A stretch of DNA of 64,000 nt from an uncultured Cryomorphaceae bacterium (GTDB lineage Bacteria; Bacteroidota; Bacteroidia; Flavobacteriales; Schleiferiaceae). A program made the position numbers and the translations under genes. Below the pieces are notes generated by a model. The model had not been told where the DNA came from. It did not search any database and was given only the letters and a program-made list of their open reading frames with translations. Where the stretch lies: contig CAKZJV010000007.1 in assembly GCA_937120475.1 (NCBI GenBank), positions 1,876,068-1,940,067 of the forward strand, read 5' to 3'. Below are positions 5,173 to 51,434 of this stretch, one piece after another; position 1 is the first letter of the stretch; the number at the start of each line of letters is the position of its first letter.

Positions 5173-6144
5173 TCATGCGGTAGCCATCTGTTTATTATAC
5201 CGCCCCCGGTATTCCACCGGAGTCATTCCAACCAGTCTTTTAAACACATCTCTAAATGCCTTAGTATCCGAATACCCTACGTCAAACATCACTTCAGAAA
5301 TTGTTTTCATCCCCCGCTCCAATTCTTTTTTGGCCGCCTCTACTCTTACCCGCTGCAGGTACTCAATAATCGTGTTTGCCGTAGAGTTTTTAAACCTGCG
5401 TTCAAAAGATCGCCTGCCGAGTCCAATCTCTTCGCAAATATGCTCTACCGTAACTTTATCCTGAAAATGGGACTCGATATATCGCTGGGCCTTCAGTACT
5501 TCCTTGTCCTGGTGGTTTTTTAATCCGATGAATACCACAAACGGAGATTGGCTTAACCGATCTATGTCTATCATATAGGCCTTCGCGGCCATTATAGCCA
5601 CTTCCCTCCCGGCATAACGCTCGATCAAATAAATAAGCAGGTTGGTAAAAGCCAGCGCCCCTCCACTGGTATAAATGCGGTCGCATTCGCTTACCATACG
5701 CTCATCTTCCAGTATAGCCTTCGGGTACAACCGCCTGAAATCTCCGGCCGCTCCCCAATGGGTAGAACATCTTTTACCATCCAGCAATCCCATTGATCCC
5801 AGGAAAAAAGCTCCCACACACATACTCACCAGGTCGGCTCCATTATGGTACTGCTTCACAATCCAGGGTACCATTTCTCTATTCCTCTGCAATACTTCTT
5901 CCGGATTCCCAAAAGTAGCCGGTATGATGATCACATCCGCATGATCCACCTCATGAATCAAAAGATCGGTAGTAATGGCATAAACCTGTCCGTAAGGCTT
6001 TACCTGTCTTGACAAGCCAACGATCTTGATATCAAATGGAGGAGTCGCAATGTTCTCATTTACCCATTGAAATAACTGCCTGGATAAATCCAGGTTAACA
6101 ATACTAAACTCGCCCTCGGGAGCAATTAAAGCGATTTTTTTCAT
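5173..6144 (-). CDS. GlxA-family transcriptional regulator (DJ-1/PfpI domain plus AraC HTH)
   Basis: 323 residues. The N-terminal DJ-1/PfpI-like domain (about 1-195) carries the nucleophile-elbow cysteine in VSMCVGAFFLG followed by a conserved histidine (CSTHWG). The C-terminal AraC/XylS double helix-turn-helix (about 215-315) has the signature VGYSDTKAFRDVFKRLVG. Such fusions act as transcription regulators whose DJ-1 domain probably senses a small molecule. It is divergent from the VOC-VOC-NTF2-SRPBCC operon at 6251, which it most likely controls. A near-match -7 element (TACCTTTT, 6149-6156 on the minus strand) would give a nearly leaderless message. Confidence 0.88.
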   Translation of the reverse strand: MKKIALIAPEGEFSIVNLDLSRQLFQWVNENIATPPFDIKIVGLSRQVKPYGQVYAITTDLLIHEVDHADVIIIPATFGNPEEVLQRNREMVPWIVKQYHNGADLVSMCVGAFFLGSMGLLDGKRCSTHWGAAGDFRRLYPKAILEDERMVSECDRIYTSGGALAFTNLLIYLIERYAGREVAIMAAKAYMIDIDRLSQSPFVVFIGLKNHQDKEVLKAQRYIESHFQDKVTVEHICEEIGLGRRSFERRFKNSTANTIIEYLQRVRVEAAKKELERGMKTISEVMFDVGYSDTKAFRDVFKRLVGMTPVEYRGRYNKQMATA

Positions 6145-6227
6145 GAGTAAAAGGTAGGCAATATCCCTGTCGTATTCACCCCTCTAATTAGTCGTTTTCT
6201 CACCCTCAACAGCATCGGAAGAACCCT

Positions 6228-6235
6228 TAGTTTTG
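6228..6235 (+). promoter_or_regulatory. Bacteroidota -7 element for the VOC operon
   Basis: TAGTTTTG matches TAnnTTTG exactly, 15 nt before the ATG at 6251. An apparent TTG start at 6233 lies inside this element, so it cannot begin the protein. Inferred leader about 8-9 nt. Confidence 0.6.
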
Positions 6236-6250
6236 AATAAACTCAAGCGT

Positions 6251-6655
6251 ATGGAAAAACAAGAATTGTGGCTCAACCTACCGGTTAAAAATCTCCAAAA
6301 GAGCAAGGAGTTCTTTCAATCCCTTGGATTTAAATCTACCAGGGACGTTCCCGGAATGGTGGGCTTTACCATCGGGCAAGTACCTGTAATGATGGTAGCG
6401 GAACCGGATTTTAAAAGGTATGCTTCCCATGCGGTTGCCAACACTAAAAATGGAAGCGAGCTACTAATTTCGGTTGATGCTCCTGACCGGGCTTATGTAG
6501 ATGGAATGGCCGATAAGGTAGCCAGGGCCGGAGGGACTGTTTTTTCAGAGCCCCAGGAAGTCCAGGGATGGATGTACAACATGGGTTTTGCTGACCCGGA
6601 CGGCCACCGCTGGAATATTGTTCACCTGGATTGGGATAACCAGCCTGAAGAATAG
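6251..6655 (+). CDS. VOC-superfamily (glyoxalase/bleomycin-resistance fold) protein
   Basis: 134 residues from the ATG at 6251. It has the VOC start ELWLNLPVKNLQKSKEFF, a mid-protein LLISVDAPD strand, and a C-terminal GWMYNMGFADPDGHRWNIVHLDW, the usual betaalphabetabetabeta layout ending in a D-P-D-G-H-x-W motif. This is the subfamily often called extradiol-dioxygenase-like or lactoylglutathione-lyase-like. The substrate is unknown, and several metal-ligand positions of true glyoxalase I are not evident. It is first gene of a four-gene operon whose spacings are 3 nt, 1 nt and a 4-nt overlap. The operon is probably regulated by the divergent GlxA-type protein. Confidence 0.82.
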   Translation: MEKQELWLNLPVKNLQKSKEFFQSLGFKSTRDVPGMVGFTIGQVPVMMVAEPDFKRYASHAVANTKNGSELLISVDAPDRAYVDGMADKVARAGGTVFSEPQEVQGWMYNMGFADPDGHRWNIVHLDWDNQPEE

Positions 6656-42837: not shown

Positions 42838-43341
42838 ATGACTTTAAAACATCGGTTTCTCTTCTTTTTCCTGCTTTGTTGCGCTTTCCTCCGGGCGCAG
42901 AATACCATTGCCTACAGCGAAGAACAAGGGTCGCCTGCGGCCAGCCTGGAGGATGTGCAATGGATAGCCGGGCATTGGCAGGGTGAAGCTTTAGGCGGTA
43001 TTACCGAGGAAATATGGACACCCGCCCTGGGTGGTTCTATGATGTGTGCCTTTAAACTGGTGGTGGACGGAAAAGTAAAGTTTTACGAACTGGTAAGCTT
43101 AAGCGAAGAAGAAGGCACCCTTATCATCCGGTTGAAACATTTTGGTCCCGCGCTACACGGTTGGGAAGAAAAAGACGAAGCTGAAGTATTCAGGCTGGTG
43201 AAGATCAGCCCCGAGAAAGTGTGGTTTGACAATTTTACCTTTGAAAAGGTCAATGAAAACGAGATGAACATTTACGTGGTGTTTGAAGGCAAGGGCGAAA
43301 AGAAAGAGGTGCAATTTAATTACCGGAGAGTGCACCAATAA
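42838..43341 (+). CDS. DUF6265-like secreted small protein
   Basis: 167 residues from the ATG at 42838, where a signal peptide starts (MTLKHRFLFFFLLCCAFLRAQ); an upstream frame is open but has no signal. The mature part has LEDVQWIAGHWQGEALGGITEEIWTPALG, the DUF6265 signature, and beta strands to FNYRRVHQ. Function unknown. The 236 bp before it contain no gene. Its stop lies 6 bp from the stop of the LodB-like gene. Confidence 0.82.
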   Translation: MTLKHRFLFFFLLCCAFLRAQNTIAYSEEQGSPAASLEDVQWIAGHWQGEALGGITEEIWTPALGGSMMCAFKLVVDGKVKFYELVSLSEEEGTLIIRLKHFGPALHGWEEKDEAEVFRLVKISPEKVWFDNFTFEKVNENEMNIYVVFEGKGEKKEVQFNYRRVHQ

Positions 43342-43347
43342 CATTAT

Positions 43348-44691
43348 CTAAATGCCATGTTGTAACTCGATAAGCCTGGTTTTTTTCAGGCTTTCCAAGG
43401 CATGCAAGAGATAAGGAGGCATGTTTTTACCAAGGCCTTTATGCTTTAAATATTGCTCCATAGCACCGGCTGCTTTGGGGTTCTCTTGAATGGCTTCTAT
43501 TAAAGCTTTAAAATCAATATCCGGGAGCCTTTGCCCCAGTAACTCTAAAGCCTTTTCATCCACCGGTTGTTTTACCTGCAATTCGTCTTCCGGGCGAATG
43601 CTAAAGTCTTGTATTTCTTTTGGCCACATATTACGATGGTACCAAAAAGCATGGCCCGGCCAACGCGATTCGCGTGCGTAGTACTCCTTGCGGTAGGTCA
43701 AATACTCCCGGTACTGCCTTTGTACCTCCGTATCGTAATCCAACAACGCCTCCTCACCAGTCTGCTGCCATTGGCGTATGGTTTCGGCCGCCAATATTCC
43801 CAGGCGGAAACCTTTTATAATGCCCGCAGAAGAGAGGGGGTCAAAGCTAATGGCGGCATCACCGGTACTCAACCATCTTTCTCCGTACGTTTGGCTCAAC
43901 CGCCTGGAGTGGGCAGACTGGATAATGGGTTTATCGCAGGATGAAGCAGAAAAGCGTTTCCTGGTAAAATAACTCTCCATCAACCTTTGCTGCCAAAACT
44001 CCCCGGCCGACAAATCACTCCCCGTAAGTAGGGCGGCATCAGTCATAAAAGTACCCACCCATGTACCGCTTTGCAACTGCACGCTGTACCACCATCCATC
44101 GGCCAGGGGCTCTACCATTAAGCCGCATTCCCCGTGTTCTTCAGGGTCGGTAACCCGGGAATAGCTAGTGATACCGATCAGTTGATCTGCTAGCTCCTTG
44201 CCCACTTCCGGTGTAGGTTTGAATTTGCTGTTTCTTCCGCTGGCATCCACCACAAAATCCAACTCAATGGATTCATTGGCAAAGTACAGCCGCCAGCCTT
44301 TTGAAAGCTTTTCCGCTTTCACTACCCTTTGGTTTAATTGCACGTCCACTCCCTGGCTGCGGGCGTATTCCATCAATGCATGGTCAAAATCAGGCCGGCT
44401 TAATATAAAACCATCACCAAAAGGGTTAAAAACCGATGGATTTTCATGAAGATCTGTACGTCCCCAGGAATTCAAAACCTGTGAACAGGCTTTGCTATTT
44501 TGTACCAACAATTCCCTGGGTATGCCGAGCCTCCCGAATTCGTGTAAAGCTTCGGCCACCAGGTGTTCTCCCACCCTGGGATTCGAGTAGTCGCCCGCTT
44601 CAAAAACTTTTACTTGCGCTGAAAATTCACTGATTTTCAGAGCTGTAAAAATCCCAGCCGGGCCACCGCCAATAATTCCCACTTTCAGCAT
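43348..44691 (-). CDS. LodB-like FAD-dependent maturation flavoprotein
   Basis: 447 residues. The Rossmann motif GIIGGGPAGIFTA (G8-G13), the second flavin motif STGDAAISFDPLSSAGI (about 283-299), and RVGEHLVAEALHEFGRLGI resemble tryptophan-halogenase-like flavoproteins. The segment FNPFGDGFILSRPDFDHALM is characteristic of LodB/GoxB proteins, which are needed to form the cysteine tryptophylquinone of LodA/GoxA. In the wider family LodB is thought to act on the folded precursor. No chlorinase lysine context is evident. It is divergent from the cytochrome-like gene and the LodA-like gene, fitting a three-gene locus. Confidence 0.87.
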   Translation of the reverse strand: MLKVGIIGGGPAGIFTALKISEFSAQVKVFEAGDYSNPRVGEHLVAEALHEFGRLGIPRELLVQNSKACSQVLNSWGRTDLHENPSVFNPFGDGFILSRPDFDHALMEYARSQGVDVQLNQRVVKAEKLSKGWRLYFANESIELDFVVDASGRNSKFKPTPEVGKELADQLIGITSYSRVTDPEEHGECGLMVEPLADGWWYSVQLQSGTWVGTFMTDAALLTGSDLSAGEFWQQRLMESYFTRKRFSASSCDKPIIQSAHSRRLSQTYGERWLSTGDAAISFDPLSSAGIIKGFRLGILAAETIRQWQQTGEEALLDYDTEVQRQYREYLTYRKEYYARESRWPGHAFWYHRNMWPKEIQDFSIRPEDELQVKQPVDEKALELLGQRLPDIDFKALIEAIQENPKAAGAMEQYLKHKGLGKNMPPYLLHALESLKKTRLIELQHGI

Positions 44692-44819
44692 ACCATAAAA
44701 TCAAAATAAGCATTCACTCAATACGGGAAAATAACCACACACACTAAATAATTTTATTCCACCTACTTAATCCATAATTTAAAGGTGTTAAAATATATAC
44801 TTATGTAATTTTTAAAATC
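44692..44819. promoter_or_regulatory. Divergent control region of the LodA/LodB-like locus
   Basis: 128 bp, AT-rich, separating the LodB-like gene (minus) from the cytochrome-like gene (plus). The minus strand carries TTATTTTG near 44705, one step off TAnnTTTG; no exact element or inverted-repeat operator was found on the plus side. Shared control of all three genes is likely from the layout. Confidence 0.4.
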
Positions 44820-46442
44820 ATGAACCAAGCAACCAATCCTTTCCAAACCCGGAGGAAATCACTATTTCTGTTCCTGGCCGTTAGCCTCATGGCTATTTTT
44901 ATACTGACCGGTGTAAAGTGGCAGTCCCCGGAAACCGCGGCCGATGCAACCCTCGTGGAAAGTCCCGCAGCAAACGTAAACTTTTTCCCCAGTACGGCTT
45001 ACGAAGTACCCTACGACCTGGCCAGCGATAGCAGCAACCAGGTAGAACTGGCACAATTTGCCTGGCAGGAATTTATTGCTCTGAACTGGCCTTCCAGTTA
45101 TACTACTGCCAACCCCACCCGGGGTATGCCCGATAAAAGTAAAACGGTGGCGGATTTCCTGAATGGAAACAATAACTACCCCTTGGTTTGGCAAACCTAT
45201 AAGCACCGGGTGGAAATTTACCCCAAGGACACCACCAATTACAACAACAGTTTTGACACCCCTCCTCAATATTTTTACAAGATTGACGGACAAAGCTCTA
45301 TTCAGAAGCTCAACGATACTTCGGCTCCCCCCCTTAAAAATATCACCACCATTTTCAATAATCTGGATGAAACTTCGGAGATTGACCTATGTACTGTATT
45401 TGTTGACGGTGACCCCGATTCACCCGGGGCCAGCAACTACCCCAACCCGCATACGGCCAGCGGACTGCCCGGGGCTCCGCGCAGGATGATCTACGAAGCC
45501 AAGGGCAATCGCGAAATGTTTGATTACGTGGTATCTAATCGCCTGTACGACACCATTGTAAGGGGAAGACGCATCTCCATTACCCAAAACTCCGTGGTAA
45601 ACAAAGGCGGTGGAGCGGTTTATCCATGCCCGGACCCACAGCAAATTTGTTTCCCGTTCGGGCAAACCGGAGCCAATGGCCGGGAAGGCTCCATAGAGGT
45701 TAAAGCCACCTGGCGGCAGCTTACGGCTACCGAATATAGCAGCGGCCGTTACCTTACGGCCCCCGTGCTTTACTACCGCAAGGCTGCCGTACCGGGTGGA
45801 GCAGCCGGTGACAGCGCTATTTATTACGACACCATTCCCGCCACACCTACCGCGGAATCATTACCCTACGGGCTGGTGGGTCTGCACATCATCCACAAAA
45901 CCAAAAATTACCCCAGTTATGTATTTGCCACCTTTGAGCAGGTGGACAACCTCGATACCACACAGCCCTATAACAACCTGTTTTATTACAATCGTAACTC
46001 CAACCCCAGTGTAAACCCTGGTAAGCAATATGCCTATCGCTATGCTAAAATACTGGCCGGAACCGAGCAGGTAAATCAAAGTGTACATAGCCAGATTAAA
46101 GCTCTAAACTCCAGCTCGGTATGGCAGTACTATAAGCTGATCGGGGTGCAGGGCCACCCTGAAAACAGCGATCTGGGAAATGATTACTTCCTGGCCAATA
46201 TCGTAACCGAAACCAATGAAGTATTACGTGATTTTTCCGGCACCCTGGATAATGACAACGGTACCTTCGACCCTACGGCCACTAACCTTTACCAGGGTAA
46301 AGTGCCCTACGTACAAGGGGGATGTAAAGGGTGCCATGCCAATGCGCAGCAATCCGACTTTAGTTTCATCACTCAAAACGCCCCTTTTGACGGCACCCCG
46401 GATGTGATCAATCAACCCTTGCTCAAGAAGTCGCTGCAATAA
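44820..46442 (+). CDS. c-type cytochrome-like protein paired with LodA-like oxidase
   Basis: 540 residues. The N-terminus MNQATNPFQTRRKSLFLFLA holds a signal or anchor helix (about residues 14-30) preceded by an RR pair weakly reminiscent of a Tat motif. Residues ~75-230 include QVELAQFAWQEFIALNWPS and LVWQTYKHRVEIYPKD, a conserved pattern of an uncharacterised family usually found with a C-terminal heme motif. One CxxCH is present (C502-K-G-C505-H506), so one covalent heme c is expected; an axial second ligand cannot be assigned. It precedes the LodA-like gene by 31 nt and is divergent from lodB-like. Electron acceptor is the inferred role. Confidence 0.78.
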   Translation: MNQATNPFQTRRKSLFLFLAVSLMAIFILTGVKWQSPETAADATLVESPAANVNFFPSTAYEVPYDLASDSSNQVELAQFAWQEFIALNWPSSYTTANPTRGMPDKSKTVADFLNGNNNYPLVWQTYKHRVEIYPKDTTNYNNSFDTPPQYFYKIDGQSSIQKLNDTSAPPLKNITTIFNNLDETSEIDLCTVFVDGDPDSPGASNYPNPHTASGLPGAPRRMIYEAKGNREMFDYVVSNRLYDTIVRGRRISITQNSVVNKGGGAVYPCPDPQQICFPFGQTGANGREGSIEVKATWRQLTATEYSSGRYLTAPVLYYRKAAVPGGAAGDSAIYYDTIPATPTAESLPYGLVGLHIIHKTKNYPSYVFATFEQVDNLDTTQPYNNLFYYNRNSNPSVNPGKQYAYRYAKILAGTEQVNQSVHSQIKALNSSSVWQYYKLIGVQGHPENSDLGNDYFLANIVTETNEVLRDFSGTLDNDNGTFDPTATNLYQGKVPYVQGGCKGCHANAQQSDFSFITQNAPFDGTPDVINQPLLKKSLQ

Positions 46443-46473
46443 CACTAAATCAACCACTTAAACCAAACTTATC

Positions 46474-49400
46474 ATGTCATTAGAACAAGTAAAATACATT
46501 AAAGTACACCCGGGTATCGGTATGGCCAGGGTAGGCAATAGCCCGGAATACTTTATAGGCCCCGAATCACCGGGCTCCCTCCCCAATCAAGGTCAGAATT
46601 ACAAAGACAGTAACGGGCTCATTAAGCCACAAGCCGCCCGCTTCAGGGTTTACGGTTACGATGAAAACGACAATGTGGTCATGGAAATAACCAATGACCC
46701 TGCTAATAATGTAGAAATACAATGGGATGTACACATGCGGAACCTCAAAGCGGCCAACTATGCCTTCCAGGGAAAGTATGCGTTTGACCCGCAACAGCTT
46801 AGAAACCCGGGGGTACAAGGCACCCTTCCCCCGGAACAAAGGAGCCAACTCATAATTGATCCCGGCTCTAAATCCATTTCCGGTAATAATCAAAGTAACG
46901 GTAGTGCCGTTCAACTGGATGGCGGAGTTATCTTCGATGGTATCGGGGAGGCTGAAATTCCGGCCAGCCTGATCAACCCGGGCGAGCCCGGCACCATCAT
47001 GGCCCAATACAACAGTAAGGAAGTGAGCCTGGGCAGGCTGGAAACCGATGCTTCCGGCCGCCTCATCATTGTTGGTGGAAAAGGAGAGGCCGGTTGCCTT
47101 ACTGATCCTCCCGTGCTGATCCGCAAGGGAGTAAGTACTATAAACGACCAACCTAATGATGATCCCACCTCGAACGGTAATTCATATTTCAACAACCCGG
47201 GCTGGTATGATGATACGGCCGGTGGATCAGTAAACGCAACGGTAAGCCTGCCGGGCGGACAAACCTTAACTACCAATAACGATCCTTCAAAACGCGGCTG
47301 GATAGCGGTGGCTCCTCCTAAATACGTGCCCAGCATGAATAATGTGGTGTCACTGCTGGATCTGCAACTGGATCTTTTCCCTGATCAAGACCCGGTTTCC
47401 GGAGCTTTGGTTTTTGCCGCTATTGATGCCAACGGTGCAGCCGAGGTTTCTTTTGGTGATCAGGCCAATTTCAATTCCATTGATGCCAGTACTGCTGCGA
47501 TTTCCGCTCCTTCTATTGCCAGTTTTAACGGTCAGCAGTATTACGCCTATACCGGCACCGGTAATGCTCCGGTGTTACTCACCTCTGCCGATGGCACCCA
47601 TTGGAGCAATGTCAGCTTAACCGGAGCTCCTTCTACACCCCACGCGCCCTCACTATGTGTATTTAACGGTTTACTTACCTACGTGGTGGTGGATGATGGC
47701 GGTTTCCTGCATATTGGCACCTCCAACGATGGCAGCACTTTTACCTTTAACTCCACCTCGACCGGTGGAGGCGTTGAGGCCACACCCTCCAAATTCGGAC
47801 CGGCTGCCTGTGCCTATAACGGAAGCTTATACATAGCCATTACCGATATGGGCGGCAACTTGCACATTGCACAACAGGATGATAAAAACCCAAATGTTTT
47901 CACCTTTTACGCAGTGGACGCCCCACAAACCAGTTTAGGCAGTCCGGCCCTTTGTCAATTCTTCGGCCAGTTGAGCTATGCCTTTACCGGCACTGATCAA
48001 AAGTGCTACATTGGATTTTACAACAATTACTCCCCCAAACCGGCTACACCCGATTTCAATTTCGACTTTAAACACGTGGGGGGTTCGGCCTTATCCAATA
48101 CGGCACCAGCTATTGTAGCGTCTCACGGTCAGCTGTACTATTTGATCCTGGGTACCAACGATTACCCCTATCTGGCTTCGGCAAAACCCGGCTTTACCGA
48201 CCTCACCTTCAACCAGTTTACCACTACTCCGTTTCAATACGCTCCGGCCGCGGCTAATTTTAACAGCATCACTTTTTACCGCGACATTTACCCGATTTTA
48301 CGCACGGTAACAGATTATGCCTGGGTAAATGAGCCCGCTTTTACCGGCCATGCTCCGGGCAGTATGGGCGACTTTCTGCGGGATAATGCCTTACCCGGCT
48401 ACGCCAATCCCAACGCTGAAAATAATCCTTACCGGGTTTTTGTATATCGGGCCATACGACCGGCCGAAACCCTGACTCCAGAGGTTCCTCCGCCTCCTGC
48501 ACCTGTACCTAGCGGTGTTGTACCCGATGGAGGTACCCAACAATCCGGACGGTTGATGCCGCATTTGTACGGAGACGGTGGTTCCGATACCGAAAACAAC
48601 TTTAATGGCACCAATTACCCGAATCAATGGTTGAGCCTTACGCCTCACCAACTTTGGAAATTCCAGCAATGGGTAAACGGAGATTTCACGGCCGGTGAAA
48701 AGCCGGTGGTTACCCCCATTGAGCAATTACCTGCCGCACAGCAACCGGCAGCCCTCGACTTTAGTGCACTGGAACCTACCGTAGGTGGTGGTTTTCACCC
48801 TGGTATTGAGCTCACCTATTACATGAAAATCTCCGGGTTTTTTGCGGCCCCCTTTCGCTTTGCGGATAATATTACCGATGATTCCGGTACGGTACTCGGG
48901 CCTATCAGTCCCGGTTCGGTAGCCGCTTATATGTCCATACCCTGGCAAGGCGATTTTTGGTCGTGCAACACCTCCTGGTGGGCCGCTATGCGCCCGGATA
49001 TTGTGGTGAGTACCCGTGGTGCGAATCCTCCCAAACTGAGCTACCAACCCTGGTTCCGGGGTGAAGCCATCGGTATTCCCCCCAATGCAGATTCCATTCC
49101 TGATTACCAGGGTGGCTATGAGCACATGGCCCGCTACTGGTCGTATTTTGGTTTTGTGGTACCCAATGGAAATACCGATACCGGTATGATAGAAATGCAG
49201 GAAACCGAAAGGGCCACCTGCCTGGATGATGATTCCGCTCCTTGCACCCCGGTCAACCCTTACGCACCCTCGTTCCGCTATAAACTGGGCACGGCTCAAC
49301 CGGCTTCTCCATCCTCCGGTAATTTCCCGGATACTTTTTATACCAATACGGTGCAGGTAGCCATCCCGGCCGATTCATCGGCCCTTTTGGCCGGATCGGA

Positions 49401-50004
49401 AGATGGTACTGCGGACGTTTATGTAGATGACCAGTGCATTGTTAAGGTAAATGGCACTCAAATCTATGCCCATGATTTCAGCAACGGTAACAGCGGAAGA
49501 ATTACGCCCCTGTCTCCGGTAGATCTTAGCGCTGCCTTACAGCCTTACGCGGGCACCACGGTTGAAATCACCATAGAATACGTGGATTTATACCCCGGTA
49601 GCAAAGGAGCATCGGCCTTCTGGCTCATTTTTGAACCTAAGCAGAATCAAATAGGTACGGCCCAGGCCGCCAGCGATTCGGTGGGCCATTTCCCTGATAC
49701 CTTTTACAGCAATACCCTTCCGCTTTTTATTCCCGCCAATGCTTCGGCCAAACTGGCTGGATCGCAAGACGGTACCGCTGAAATTTATGTGGACGACCAA
49801 TGCATCATTAAAGTGAATGGTACCGAGGTTTATTCTCACGATTTCAGCAACGGCAACAGCGGAAGAATTACACCCTTACCTCCCGTTGACCTCAGTTCGC
49901 AGTTGCAGGCCTACGGAGGAAGTACCGTTACAATCACCGTTGAGTACGTGGATCTGTATCCCAATAAAAAAGGAGCATCTGCCTTCTGGCTACTGTTTGA
50001 ATAA
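46474..50004 (+). CDS. LodA/GoxA-family CTQ quinoprotein with propeller insert and tandem C-terminal domains
   Basis: 1176 residues, about 450 longer than LodA. Residues 2-~305 are LodA-like (YIKVHPGIGMARVGNSPEYF). Residues ~310-590 form a five-repeat propeller-like insert (repeats begin near 345, 391, 442, 490, 544, each like APSLCVFNGLLTYV). The LodA fold resumes at ITFYRDIYPILRTV (599-). The expected CTQ residues are visible: D827 and C831 in PWQGDFWSCNTSWWAAMRPD and W889 in ARYWSYFGFVV, 58 residues on (65 in LodA C516-W581). Two ~120-residue C-terminal domains follow (935-1176). No canonical signal peptide. LodA oxidises lysine, GoxA glycine; the substrate here is unknown. Confidence 0.88.
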   Translation: MSLEQVKYIKVHPGIGMARVGNSPEYFIGPESPGSLPNQGQNYKDSNGLIKPQAARFRVYGYDENDNVVMEITNDPANNVEIQWDVHMRNLKAANYAFQGKYAFDPQQLRNPGVQGTLPPEQRSQLIIDPGSKSISGNNQSNGSAVQLDGGVIFDGIGEAEIPASLINPGEPGTIMAQYNSKEVSLGRLETDASGRLIIVGGKGEAGCLTDPPVLIRKGVSTINDQPNDDPTSNGNSYFNNPGWYDDTAGGSVNATVSLPGGQTLTTNNDPSKRGWIAVAPPKYVPSMNNVVSLLDLQLDLFPDQDPVSGALVFAAIDANGAAEVSFGDQANFNSIDASTAAISAPSIASFNGQQYYAYTGTGNAPVLLTSADGTHWSNVSLTGAPSTPHAPSLCVFNGLLTYVVVDDGGFLHIGTSNDGSTFTFNSTSTGGGVEATPSKFGPAACAYNGSLYIAITDMGGNLHIAQQDDKNPNVFTFYAVDAPQTSLGSPALCQFFGQLSYAFTGTDQKCYIGFYNNYSPKPATPDFNFDFKHVGGSALSNTAPAIVASHGQLYYLILGTNDYPYLASAKPGFTDLTFNQFTTTPFQYAPAAANFNSITFYRDIYPILRTVTDYAWVNEPAFTGHAPGSMGDFLRDNALPGYANPNAENNPYRVFVYRAIRPAETLTPEVPPPPAPVPSGVVPDGGTQQSGRLMPHLYGDGGSDTENNFNGTNYPNQWLSLTPHQLWKFQQWVNGDFTAGEKPVVTPIEQLPAAQQPAALDFSALEPTVGGGFHPGIELTYYMKISGFFAAPFRFADNITDDSGTVLGPISPGSVAAYMSIPWQGDFWSCNTSWWAAMRPDIVVSTRGANPPKLSYQPWFRGEAIGIPPNADSIPDYQGGYEHMARYWSYFGFVVPNGNTDTGMIEMQETERATCLDDDSAPCTPVNPYAPSFRYKLGTAQPASPSSGNFPDTFYTNTVQVAIPADSSALLAGSEDGTADVYVDDQCIVKVNGTQIYAHDFSNGNSGRITPLSPVDLSAALQPYAGTTVEITIEYVDLYPGSKGASAFWLIFEPKQNQIGTAQAASDSVGHFPDTFYSNTLPLFIPANASAKLAGSQDGTAEIYVDDQCIIKVNGTEVYSHDFSNGNSGRITPLPPVDLSSQLQAYGGSTVTITVEYVDLYPNKKGASAFWLLFE
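49285..50001 (+). repeat. Two tandem C-terminal domain repeats in the LodA-like gene
   Basis: Repeat period is 366 bp (122 codons): copy 1 at 49285-49629 and copy 2 at 49651-50001. Shared core: VYVDDQCIVKVNGTQIYAHD (copy 1) against IYVDDQCIIKVNGTEVYSHD (copy 2), then DFSNGNSGRITPL in both. Both end in K-GASAFWL-FE. The fold looks like a small beta-sandwich; function unknown. Confidence 0.9.
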
Positions 50005-50024
50005 TTGACATTCTTACTTCCCAT

Positions 50025-50057
50025 AGTGCCCGGATCATTTTTTGATCCGGGCACTTA
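50025..50057 (+). terminator. Stem-loop after the LodA-like gene
   Basis: Perfect 13-bp stem AGTGCCCGGATCA (50025-50037) with its complement (50043-50055), loop of T's. The T tract is short, so termination may be modest. Confidence 0.7.
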
Positions 50058-50170
50058 CTTATCGGGAAAGTATCAGCACTCCAGGCCTTCCTGCAACTCT
50101 GATGAACGTCTAAGCCCCACTCCTAAATAAAGCCTATAATTAACTATCTCTTACTTTCAATAAATAGCTG

Positions 50171-50178
50171 TACATTTG
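50171..50178 (+). promoter_or_regulatory. Bacteroidota -7 element for the desaturase block
   Basis: TACATTTG matches TAnnTTTG exactly, but lies 161 nt upstream of the desaturase ATG, far further than other promoters in the window. Confidence 0.6.
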
Positions 50179-50339
50179 CACCCGCTCTCCTTAGCGGGAA
50201 GTCCTTGACCAGTTTCTTCCTTTCGAAAAGAAGATTTAGCTAAGTAGAAACCATATAGCTAGATTATTCAGCACAGTTTAAAAAACATGTACACCACCAA
50301 CGACAACGCTTAGCGTAAGTCTATGGTTAGGTTATACCT
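50179..50339 (+). promoter_or_regulatory. Long untranslated leader before the desaturase
   Basis: About 155 nt with no convincing frame. It contains several TAGCTA-like segments (GATTTAGCTAAG, CATATAGCTAG) and pairs of short complementary stretches that could switch structure. The long leader and the downstream cold-response genes suggest RNA-based temperature control; this is inference. Confidence 0.45.
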
Positions 50340-51434
50340 ATGATAAAAGTATCCCATAAATTTCCCCGCCAACCGGATAATGATTTCTTTAAAAGCCTGC
50401 ACAAGCGGGTCAACGCCCATTTTGCCGGTGGCAAACGATCAGCCTACGGAGACTGGCAGCTTTTGGTTAAAACGATGTGCATGATCGGCTTGTTTCTGGT
50501 ACCCTACTTCTTCATCCTTAGCGGGGCCGTTCAAAACACCGGGCTTTTTCTTTTGCTCTGGACCGTTATGGGCCTTGGCGTGGCGGGTATTGGTGTGAAC
50601 GTTATGCACGATGCCAACCACGGTGCATTTTCCCGCCACAAAACTTTTAACCGCATCGTAAGCCTGGTAATGAACCTCATGGGTGGTGATGCCGCTATTT
50701 GGCGACTTCAGCACAATGTGTTACACCATTCCTTCACCAACATTCATGGTGCAGATGATGATATTATCGGTCCGCCCATGTTGCGCTTTTCGCCCCATGA
50801 ACCTCGCAAAGCCATACACCGTCACCAATATGTGTATGCCTGGTTTCTATACGGGCTTATGACCCTCATTAAAGTAGCTTACACGGATTTTAAAAGAGCC
50901 ATTCGCTACCGCAAAATGAACCTTATAAAAACCCGTAAGGAGTTTGTGGCGCGCCTCTTTAAAATTGCCGGGGGCAAATTGTTGTACTTCGGTTATATGA
51001 TAGCCCTGCCTATATGGCTGGCACCGGTATCACCCTGGTTGGTGATTGTAGGCTTTCTTTTGATGCACCTGGTGTGTGGTTTTGTATTGTCTATTATTTT
51101 CCAGACGGCCCATGTTATGCCTTCTTCTGAATATCCCTTGCCCGATGAAAATGGAACTATGGAAAACAACTGGGCGGTGCACCAAATGCTTACCACTACC
51201 AACTTCTCCCCGAAAAGCCGCCTCTTTTCCTGGTTTATCGGGGGTTTGAATTACCAGATTGAACATCACCTTTTTGCCAATATCAGCCACGTACACTACC
51301 GTGATATTTCACGCATCGTAGCTGAAACAGCACGTGAGTTCGGCATTCCCTACCATTGCCAGAAAAGCTTTGGCCATGCCCTGGTTAACCACGGTAAAAT
51401 GCTTTACCAACTTGGACGACAACCGTCAACCTAA
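50340..51434 (+). CDS. Membrane fatty-acid desaturase
   Basis: 364 residues. It introduces a double bond into acyl chains, using a di-iron centre. The three histidine clusters are present: HDANH (90-94), HNVLHH (125-130), and QIEHH (306-310, with H309 and H310), plus hydrophobic helix pairs near 35-75 and 215-255. The QIEHH third box fits front-end/linoleoyl-CoA-type desaturases. No cytochrome b5 domain is fused. It heads a run with a DEAD-box helicase and a cold-shock-domain protein. Confidence 0.93.
   Translation: MIKVSHKFPRQPDNDFFKSLHKRVNAHFAGGKRSAYGDWQLLVKTMCMIGLFLVPYFFILSGAVQNTGLFLLLWTVMGLGVAGIGVNVMHDANHGAFSRHKTFNRIVSLVMNLMGGDAAIWRLQHNVLHHSFTNIHGADDDIIGPPMLRFSPHEPRKAIHRHQYVYAWFLYGLMTLIKVAYTDFKRAIRYRKMNLIKTRKEFVARLFKIAGGKLLYFGYMIALPIWLAPVSPWLVIVGFLLMHLVCGFVLSIIFQTAHVMPSSEYPLPDENGTMENNWAVHQMLTTTNFSPKSRLFSWFIGGLNYQIEHHLFANISHVHYRDISRIVAETAREFGIPYHCQKSFGHALVNHGKMLYQLGRQPST

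Follow-up and report, generated by a model that had tools for sequence, protein, structure and literature searches.

What does a heme c protein do beside a quinoprotein of the LodA family? The question is raised by positions 43348 to 50004 of a 64,000-nucleotide stretch (the window) of contig CAKZJV010000007.1, from an uncultured Cryomorphaceae bacterium. An earlier note on this DNA had read the locus as a LodA/GoxA-like protein with cysteine tryptophylquinone (CTQ), a dedicated flavoprotein and a c-type cytochrome. We favour, tentatively and as a plausible rather than a probable account, an exported quinone-plus-heme oxidation system in which the heme protein, P0002, handles hydrogen peroxide made by the quinoprotein, P0003. 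The note had the layout right, with three intact open reading frames (ORFs) at these coordinates and on these strands:

43348..44691, minus strand: P0001, LodB-like FAD protein of 447 amino acids (aa), presumed CTQ maturase (NCBIfam and PDB matches)
44692..44819, no strand: 128 bp of intergenic DNA from which the genes for the flavoprotein and the heme protein diverge (sequence)
44820..46442, plus strand: P0002, probable P460-like heme c protein of 540 aa with an N-terminal hydrophobic helix at aa 7-29 (AlphaFold2 (AF2) model, VIA-align, hhalign)
46474..50004, plus strand: P0003, predicted LodA-family CTQ protein of 1176 aa (Pfam LodA_N and LodA_C; AF2 model)

The genes for P0001 and P0002 diverge across the 128 bp, and those for P0002 and P0003 run in the same direction with a gap of 31 bp. 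Promoter-like matches across 43200-50400 were not above those in shuffled sequence, and a terminator scan returned chance level only.

P0003 matched Pfam LodA_N (PF17990) at aa 12-267 (E 8e-55; 186.5 bits, gathering cut-off 26.3) and LodA_C (PF18417) at aa 708-843 (E 6e-35; 120.6 bits, gathering cut-off 25). Under the NCBIfam equivalog models it scored 145.9 of 600 bits for LodA and 227.8 of 750 for GoxA, below both cut-offs. By these matches P0003 is a member of the LodA-like CTQ protein family. The residues that matter for the cofactor are the following:

48952..48966, plus strand: conserved Asp D827 to the CTQ cysteine C831 (alignment with LodA/GoxA)
48979..48981, plus strand: W836, predicted CTQ tryptophan (alignments to LodA W581 and PlGoxA W697, by counting)
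49138..49140, plus strand: W889, the tryptophan chosen earlier, which is not the CTQ residue (aligns with LodA residue 626)

In LodA, the cofactor is made from W581 and C516 (PMC4417212). In phmmer alignments, by counting, C831 fell on LodA C516 and GoxA C682, and D827 on GoxA D678. The P0003 motif PWQGDFWSC reads against PWQADFFNC in LodA and PWQSDAASC in GoxA, and D827 and C831 had been placed correctly. The tryptophan had not. W889, suggested by an M...W pattern, pairs with the W of LodA 'QMVEHW' in a weak match; this is residue 626 in 3weu numbering, whereas W581 lies in the WW motif. In catalase-fused and some other relatives the W889 column is Phe. The LodA segment 'AYYSYWWPPQSP' (2ymw 595-606) pairs with 'AYNIPWWPAHRP' of locus L024, which is the column of W836, and the second W of 'AYYSYWWPPQSP' is 2ymw 601, or W581 after the 20-residue offset to 3weu. 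Likewise, GoxA 'PIPSWW' (last residue 697 by counting) pairs with 'PIPAWW' of L039. The W836 column was invariant in two family alignments (8/8 and 25/25 rows). We also considered whether the catalase-fused LodA proteins are without a CTQ Trp and rejected this, as the Trp is present in their 'FWPARVP' motif. The predicted CTQ pair of P0003 is therefore C831-W836, five residues apart, and the enzyme itself probably makes its quinone cofactor out of these two side chains, one Cys and one Trp.

P0001, within which FNPFGDGFILSR and GDAAISFDPLSSAGI were both found as reported earlier, had LodB as its best NCBIfam model (E 6.1e-66; 222.9 of 400 bits), followed by GoxB (E 7.5e-56; 189.7 of 400 bits) and QhpG (E 5.9e-45; 153.9 of 240 bits). 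All three scores lie under the respective equivalog cut-offs, and we classify P0001 from its sequence as LodB-like only, short of LodB/GoxB equivalog status. Its best relative in the PDB is the peptidyl tryptophan dihydroxylase 7ctq (E 4.9e-19). The family matches and alignments bear out a LodA/GoxA-family protein that has the CTQ Cys and Asp and, once corrected, the Trp, together with its own LodB-like flavoprotein and an unusual heme-motif neighbour.

The heme protein is less easily placed. The CxxCH motif behind its description as a c-type cytochrome is genuine, but an electron-shuttling cytochrome is not what P0002 resembles; the likeness is to the ligand-binding cytochrome P460. Three of its sites enter the argument:

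46323..46337, plus strand: CKGCH heme c motif, aa 502-506 (sequence)
45702..45704, plus strand: K295 codon, position of the P460 heme-crosslink lysine (weak profile alignment to McP460 K78)
45885..45887, plus strand: H356 codon, proposed distal residue (family alignment; register inferred from motif spacing)

The AF2 model of P0002 had a predicted TM score (pTM) of 0.76. VIA-align of this model placed cytochromes P460 and c'-beta at all of ranks 1-9, with Z 4.9-5.9, a root-mean-square deviation (rmsd) of 3.8-5.3 and 125-143 residues aligned to targets of 135-160; the next row had Z 2.9. By the tool's own caution, Z values of 5-6 can reflect a common structural arrangement. Searches of PDB sequences with P0002 gave no match at E<=10. 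With a profile of the P0002 family, the top PDB match was the Methylococcus capsulatus cytochrome P460 (McP460) at E 0.28, which is not significant alone, with cbb3 oxidase subunits next at 0.55. The McP460 match consists of two collinear blocks, 'PDGAILVKLSWKKSTH', which holds K78, and 'ECMGCHSGAKAADYVFT'; the collinear blocks include 'GAILVKLSW' and 'CMGCHSGAKAADYVF'. K78 is the crosslinking lysine of McP460 (PMC11928373, Table 2). When the family insert was excised, hhalign reached P 3.4e-8 across 82 columns when set against the phylum's P460 domains; for two comparison sets of other CxxCH proteins the values were 2.3e-4 across 10 columns and 0.023 across 27. In a column-shuffle control the top score among 60 shuffles was 16.3 vs 54.5, a mild control, as shuffling also breaks the CxxCH.

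Both K295 and H356 are invariant in the 31 family members aligned (Lys in 31/31 and His in 31/31). CxxCH is present in 30/31, and the 31st (L051) has the motif after an in-frame stop. Among the 31 are the window protein, 17 sequences that went into the model alignment or overlap with it, the near-copies L024 and L038, and members that are incomplete (L048, L051, L185). Judged by spacing to the next basic residue, an inferred register, H356 takes the place of Gly82 in c'-beta and of Glu96 or Asp102 in active P460s. An ordinary cytochrome c was rejected for P0002, which matched no Pfam c-type family at E<=1. The model and the profile comparisons make P0002 a probable relative of the cytochrome P460/c'-beta superfamily, large, divergent and out of reach of Pfam recognition; it is probably not an ordinary electron carrier. 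Its N-terminus looks exported. In the same genome, matches to Cytochrom_C_asm (PF01578) fit heme c attachment; ResB (PF05140) was not found there, and PF16694 had no match at E<=0.001.

Is the pairing of P0002 with P0003 more than a local accident? A LodA-alignment scan of a named genome collection gave 462 confirmed loci, and what follows refers to the best 80 of these, a non-random sample in which several contigs end near the LodA gene. The five closest to the window came from a Cyclobacteriaceae metagenome-assembled genome (MAG), a Saprospiraceae MAG, Polaribacter sp. Hel1_85, an Alcanivoracaceae MAG and an Alphaproteobacteria MAG. In 6/6 cases (the window and these five) a P0002-family gene lies directly upstream of LodA on the same strand; a six-frame search of the other 75 loci found one at none (0/75). 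A LodA tree with 84 rows unites the six in a single clade (SH-aLRT 92, not starred), whose sister is a group of 12 Pseudomonadota rows (joint support 100). The heme-neighbour label needs two changes on this tree, and 0/500 shuffles were as low. The 84 rows came from 90 sources, the dropped ones being fragments without the N-terminal motif or with fewer than 350 aa after it; L067 and L106 gave two rows each, and L070, L083 and L120 were kept despite having no PWQ.D...C pattern. The second change corresponds to another pairing: L024 and L038, which are near-identical and come from one genus, carry a cluster of tyrosinase, LodA, small gene, LodB and P0002 family. They meet L106_2 by long branches, so that their placement is unsure.

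A Cys-to-Trp spacing of 5 was seen at 17/17 named loci that fall in the window clade or its sister (13 of them by pattern, with L053, L054, L058 and L060 read from the sequence segment), and also in L091 and L099 outside both. Other spacings were 16 in 39 of the rows examined, 15 in GoxA-like proteins, 35 in L024 and L038, and 65 in LodA; L070, L083, L086, L096 and L120 gave no match to the PWQ.D...C pattern. LodB adjoins LodA (E<=1e-20, <=4 kb) at 75/80 named loci. Within the window clade, the window itself, L050 and L052 have it, as does L051 in two pieces; it was not found on the contig stretches searched for L048 and L049. In L051, the Alcanivoracaceae MAG, the P0002 homologue has its in-frame stop at 1799-1801, before the CxxCH, and the lodB fragments lie at 5276-6373; this may be decay or assembly error.

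Within the phylum, a co-occurrence search of 392 genomes, a check proposed in the earlier note, returned 13 LodA_N loci in 10 genomes, with a LodB-like neighbour at 13/13 and a CxxCH-family gene at 3/13. The three-gene set is indeed unusual in this phylum, but the pair is not confined to it, being also present in two assemblies labelled Pseudomonadota (L051 and L052); these are metagenome bins, for which mis-binning is possible. Strong P0002-family matches occurred in 9 of the 392 genomes, 3 of them (own genome included) shared with LodA_N (hypergeometric P 9e-4, relatedness ignored). At a loose cut-off (E<=0.001) the family occurred in 19/392 genomes, including 8/10 LodA genomes, mostly from two genera, and these members were mostly unlinked to LodA where examined.

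P0003 itself is more than a LodA core. Its AF2 model (pTM 0.66) aligned with GoxA at Z 31.4 (rmsd 3.0 and 27% identity over 414 residues) and with LodA at Z 27.3, and two additions stand out:

47395..48264, plus strand: six-bladed beta-propeller between LodA_N and LodA_C, aa ~308-597 (AF2 model, VIA-align)
49318..50001, plus strand: two C-terminal beta repeats of 106 aa each, aa 949-1054 and 1071-1176 (pairwise alignment)

Residues ~308-597 matched six-bladed propellers by VIA-align with Z ~25 and rmsd ~2.6 over ~265 residues; the matches include Kelch domains, the designed propeller SAKe6 and the fucose-binding lectin AFL. The flanking core motifs are separated by 296-343 residues in 6/6 clade members and by 18 in the sister-clade locus L055. 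On the model, then, the LodA core of P0003 holds an inserted six-bladed propeller. The L050 homologue ends in DUF5648 in place of the P0003-type repeats. The GoxA-like protein of L039 (7249-9675) ends in the same domain type as these repeats.

How might the three proteins work together? P0001 would help to turn C831 and W836 of P0003 into CTQ, and P0003, if exported, would then oxidise a primary amine or an amino acid. P0002, a large protein, would be anchored on the far side of the cytoplasmic membrane and carry a P460-type heme c, to which K295 may be linked as a modification and which H356 would face from the distal side. This heme would most likely react with hydrogen peroxide made by P0003, first forming the Lys-heme crosslink; P0002 would then act as a peroxidase, spending peroxide on a co-substrate at the surface. 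The propeller and/or the C-terminal repeats of P0003 may bind a surface or a glycan. Stated more broadly, we infer that the heme protein most likely handles the peroxide or the electrons of the oxidase outside the cytoplasm. We favour peroxide because P460-type hemes are ligand-binding, because formation of the Lys-heme crosslink in P460 requires peroxide (PMC11928373), because the known enzymes release it (amino-acid oxidases, LodA included; PMC4417212), and because a reference title in PMC11928373 calls one superfamily member a peroxidase mimic.

Several observations weigh against this account and against the assignments on which it is built. The peroxidase mimic is without the Lys crosslink. 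In P0003 no N-terminal signal was seen by eye, whereas P0002 looks exported; the two may therefore stay apart unless P0003 is secreted in some other way. In the P0003 model the CTQ region has a predicted local distance difference test (pLDDT) score <50, too low for the model to bear on whether C831 and W836 are adjacent. P0002 matched no Pfam family at E<=1, PF16694 included, and Foldseek with its model returned nothing at E<=0.001. Without excision of the insert, whole-family hhalign against P460 gave P 4e-5 or worse, and the best alignments shrank to the CxxCH end. The CxxCH tail alone gave 2.6e-7 against P460 and 1.5e-5 against another CxxCH family; much of the P0002-P460 profile signal therefore sits in the tail, and the block without CxxCH gave 0.003-0.009. 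Finally, P0002 relatives adjoin tyrosinases or no evident oxidase, and so are not a dedicated LodA partner family.

A different use of the heme was put forward in the earlier note, namely that P0002 takes electrons directly from reduced CTQ, as in quinohemoprotein amine dehydrogenase (QHNDH), so that P0003 is a dehydrogenase releasing little peroxide. We regard this as unlikely, though worth serious attention. QHNDH has the same three elements of CTQ, beta-propeller and c-type heme (PMC7876137, PMC8172795), and the Cys-to-Trp spacing of 5 and the Asp at C-4 in P0003 are nearer to the QHNDH gamma subunit (Asp33, Cys37, Trp42-Trp43) than to LodA (65) or GoxA (15). The sister clade also offers a second, unrelated heme solution: at 3/12 of its loci lodA and lodB are followed by a protein of 922-1055 aa with five CxxCH motifs. 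These pentaheme proteins have exported-looking N-termini, that of L056 lipoprotein-like:

L056:13244-16411: pentaheme protein behind lodB
L061:13358-16126: pentaheme protein behind lodB
L062:6264-9152: pentaheme protein behind lodB

On the other side, no multiheme neighbour was found at 9/12 sister-clade loci within the 4 kb searched, QHNDH employs a two-heme subunit, and ligand-binding P460-type hemes of low potential (McP460, -340 mV; PMC11928373) would be poor simple electron acceptors. The P460 resemblance tilts the balance to peroxide or small-ligand chemistry, and the pentaheme neighbours tilt it to electron transfer. A further, similarly doubtful idea is that P0003 and P0002 form one quinohemoprotein complex, docked through the propeller, in which electrons or peroxide pass from CTQ to a Lys-crosslinked P460-type heme with a distal His.

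P0002 might instead serve to make or export active P0003, as a MauG-like oxidant or an escort, with no role in turnover. This has only a slim chance of being right. At 11 of the 12 sister-clade loci (all except L056), a small ORF whose leader is twin-arginine-like, by pattern and by eye, precedes lodA at the spot that P0002 fills here, and a possible role for this ORF is that of an export escort for a signal-less LodA. These ORFs (L053, L054, L055 and L057-L064) lie <=1.3 kb upstream, and most have a IEKSIKASFGGGF segment, from which L060-L062 differ. P0002 and its homologues in L050 and L051 have an RRK motif ahead of the hydrophobic stretch, but the homologues in L049 and L052 are without it, and that of L049 is lipoprotein-like. 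To our knowledge, no heme partner has been described for known LodA, which also weighs against a maturation or export role. LodA does require LodB (PMC4417212).

It is improbable, in our estimate, that P0002 protects P0003 by clearing hydroxylamine or small nitrogen species that inactivate the quinone, or that it oxidises the amine product further. Cytochromes P460 do oxidise hydroxylamine (PMC11928373), hydroxylamine is among the inhibitors tried on glycine oxidase (PMC3948610), and K295 is kept in 31/31 aligned members. However, the distal carboxylate on which NeP460 and McP460 depend to oxidise NH2OH (PMC11928373) appears, in the inferred register, to be replaced by His356, and the family also adjoins tyrosinases. 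That the genes are neighbours by chance or shared transfer seems just as improbable: several genomes have P0002 relatives without a LodA neighbour, and P0002 was found in 0/2 same-genus genomes searched and therefore seems mobile, but direct adjacency with the same strand and order in 6/6 clade members, and a second LodA clade with the family in its cluster (L024, L038), speak against it.

Other settings of the P0002 family bear on its range. At L018 a P0002-family gene lies beside a tyrosinase with no LodA. Tyrosinase clusters with such a gene (L018:5016-9172, L024:2409-10107 and L038:5131-12772) suggest that the family is a general oxidase partner. The same clusters have a protein of ~140-160 aa with a TYRSFL-like motif, located between lodA and lodB in L024 and L038. 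In three genomes P0002-family genes are paired with proteins of ~600-710 aa without a significant Pfam match (L020:4785-8442, L021:6058-9798, L022:8295-11611). The window's own genome has a second P0002 copy (L017) beside an Asp/Asn beta-hydroxylase-like gene. It also has a second LodA/LodB pair (L016:5355-12057), which starts 2.4 kb past the end of a radical SAM gene and is flanked by two proteins, one of 898 aa that matches nothing in Pfam and one of 491 aa with HETAHNKLF, an arrangement reminiscent of a modified-peptide cluster. At L122:7293-8738 a CxxCH protein of 482 aa, encoded immediately before a LodA gene of 1025 aa and matching PF16694 below threshold, is perhaps another P460-like partner.

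How does the locus compare with known systems? P0003 and P0001 share with LodA of Marinomonas mediterranea and GoxA of Pseudoalteromonas luteoviolacea, and their LodB/GoxB proteins, the domains, the CTQ Asp, Cys and Trp, the LodB-like neighbour and the core fold; they differ in the inserted propeller, the Cys-to-Trp spacing of 5, the C-terminal repeats and the P460-like heme partner. P0002 resembles cytochrome P460/c'-beta in its C-terminal CxxCH followed by a DFSF/DYVF segment, the Lys at the crosslink position, a W.[WF]..F strand and, as VIA-align suggests, the overall beta fold. It departs from them in its length (540 aa vs 135-196 aa in solved chains), an N-terminal extension, an insert of ~115 aa before the heme motif and a His at the inferred distal position. 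With QHNDH (the qhp operon) the system shares the short Cys-Trp spacing with a preceding Asp, the beta-propeller, heme c and a flavoprotein of LodB/QhpG type. In QHNDH, however, the CTQ motif lies in QhpC, a small thioether-caged gamma subunit, rather than in a LodA fold; here the propeller is in the same chain as the CTQ, and there is one P460-like heme motif vs two hemes. The likeness to QHNDH is thus likely convergence, not membership. Group ID LodA operons (Campillo-Brocal 2015, PMC4417212) combine a tyrosinase, a multicopper oxidase and a small gene, and the order tyrosinase, LodA, small gene, LodB of L024 and L038 is like them; in the window, by contrast, profiles for the tyrosinase and the small gene hit no ORF at E<=1e-3. 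PMC4417212 contains the word 'cytochrome' 0 times, and the pairing of LodA with a P460-like protein was not found in the open literature searched. LodA-like proteins, LodB and cytochrome P460 are already known; the gene pairing, present in at least six bacteria of two phyla, suggests a quinone-plus-heme redox partnership that is so far undescribed.

The corrected CTQ residue, W836, points mutational tests at the right site. P0002 belongs to a large P460-like family that escapes Pfam (E<=1) and stands beside several kinds of oxidase; its Lys at the position of the crosslink is invariant. Should P0003 and P0002 indeed form one complex, it would be an independent reinvention, on a LodA scaffold, of the QHNDH design of CTQ, propeller and heme c, and it would give a P460-type heme a catalytic role outside nitrogen-oxide chemistry. 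LodA-family enzymes have been described as peroxide-making oxidases; a conserved heme partner in one clade, seen in assemblies of two phyla, and a different one in part of its sister clade suggest another kind of wiring in some of the family.

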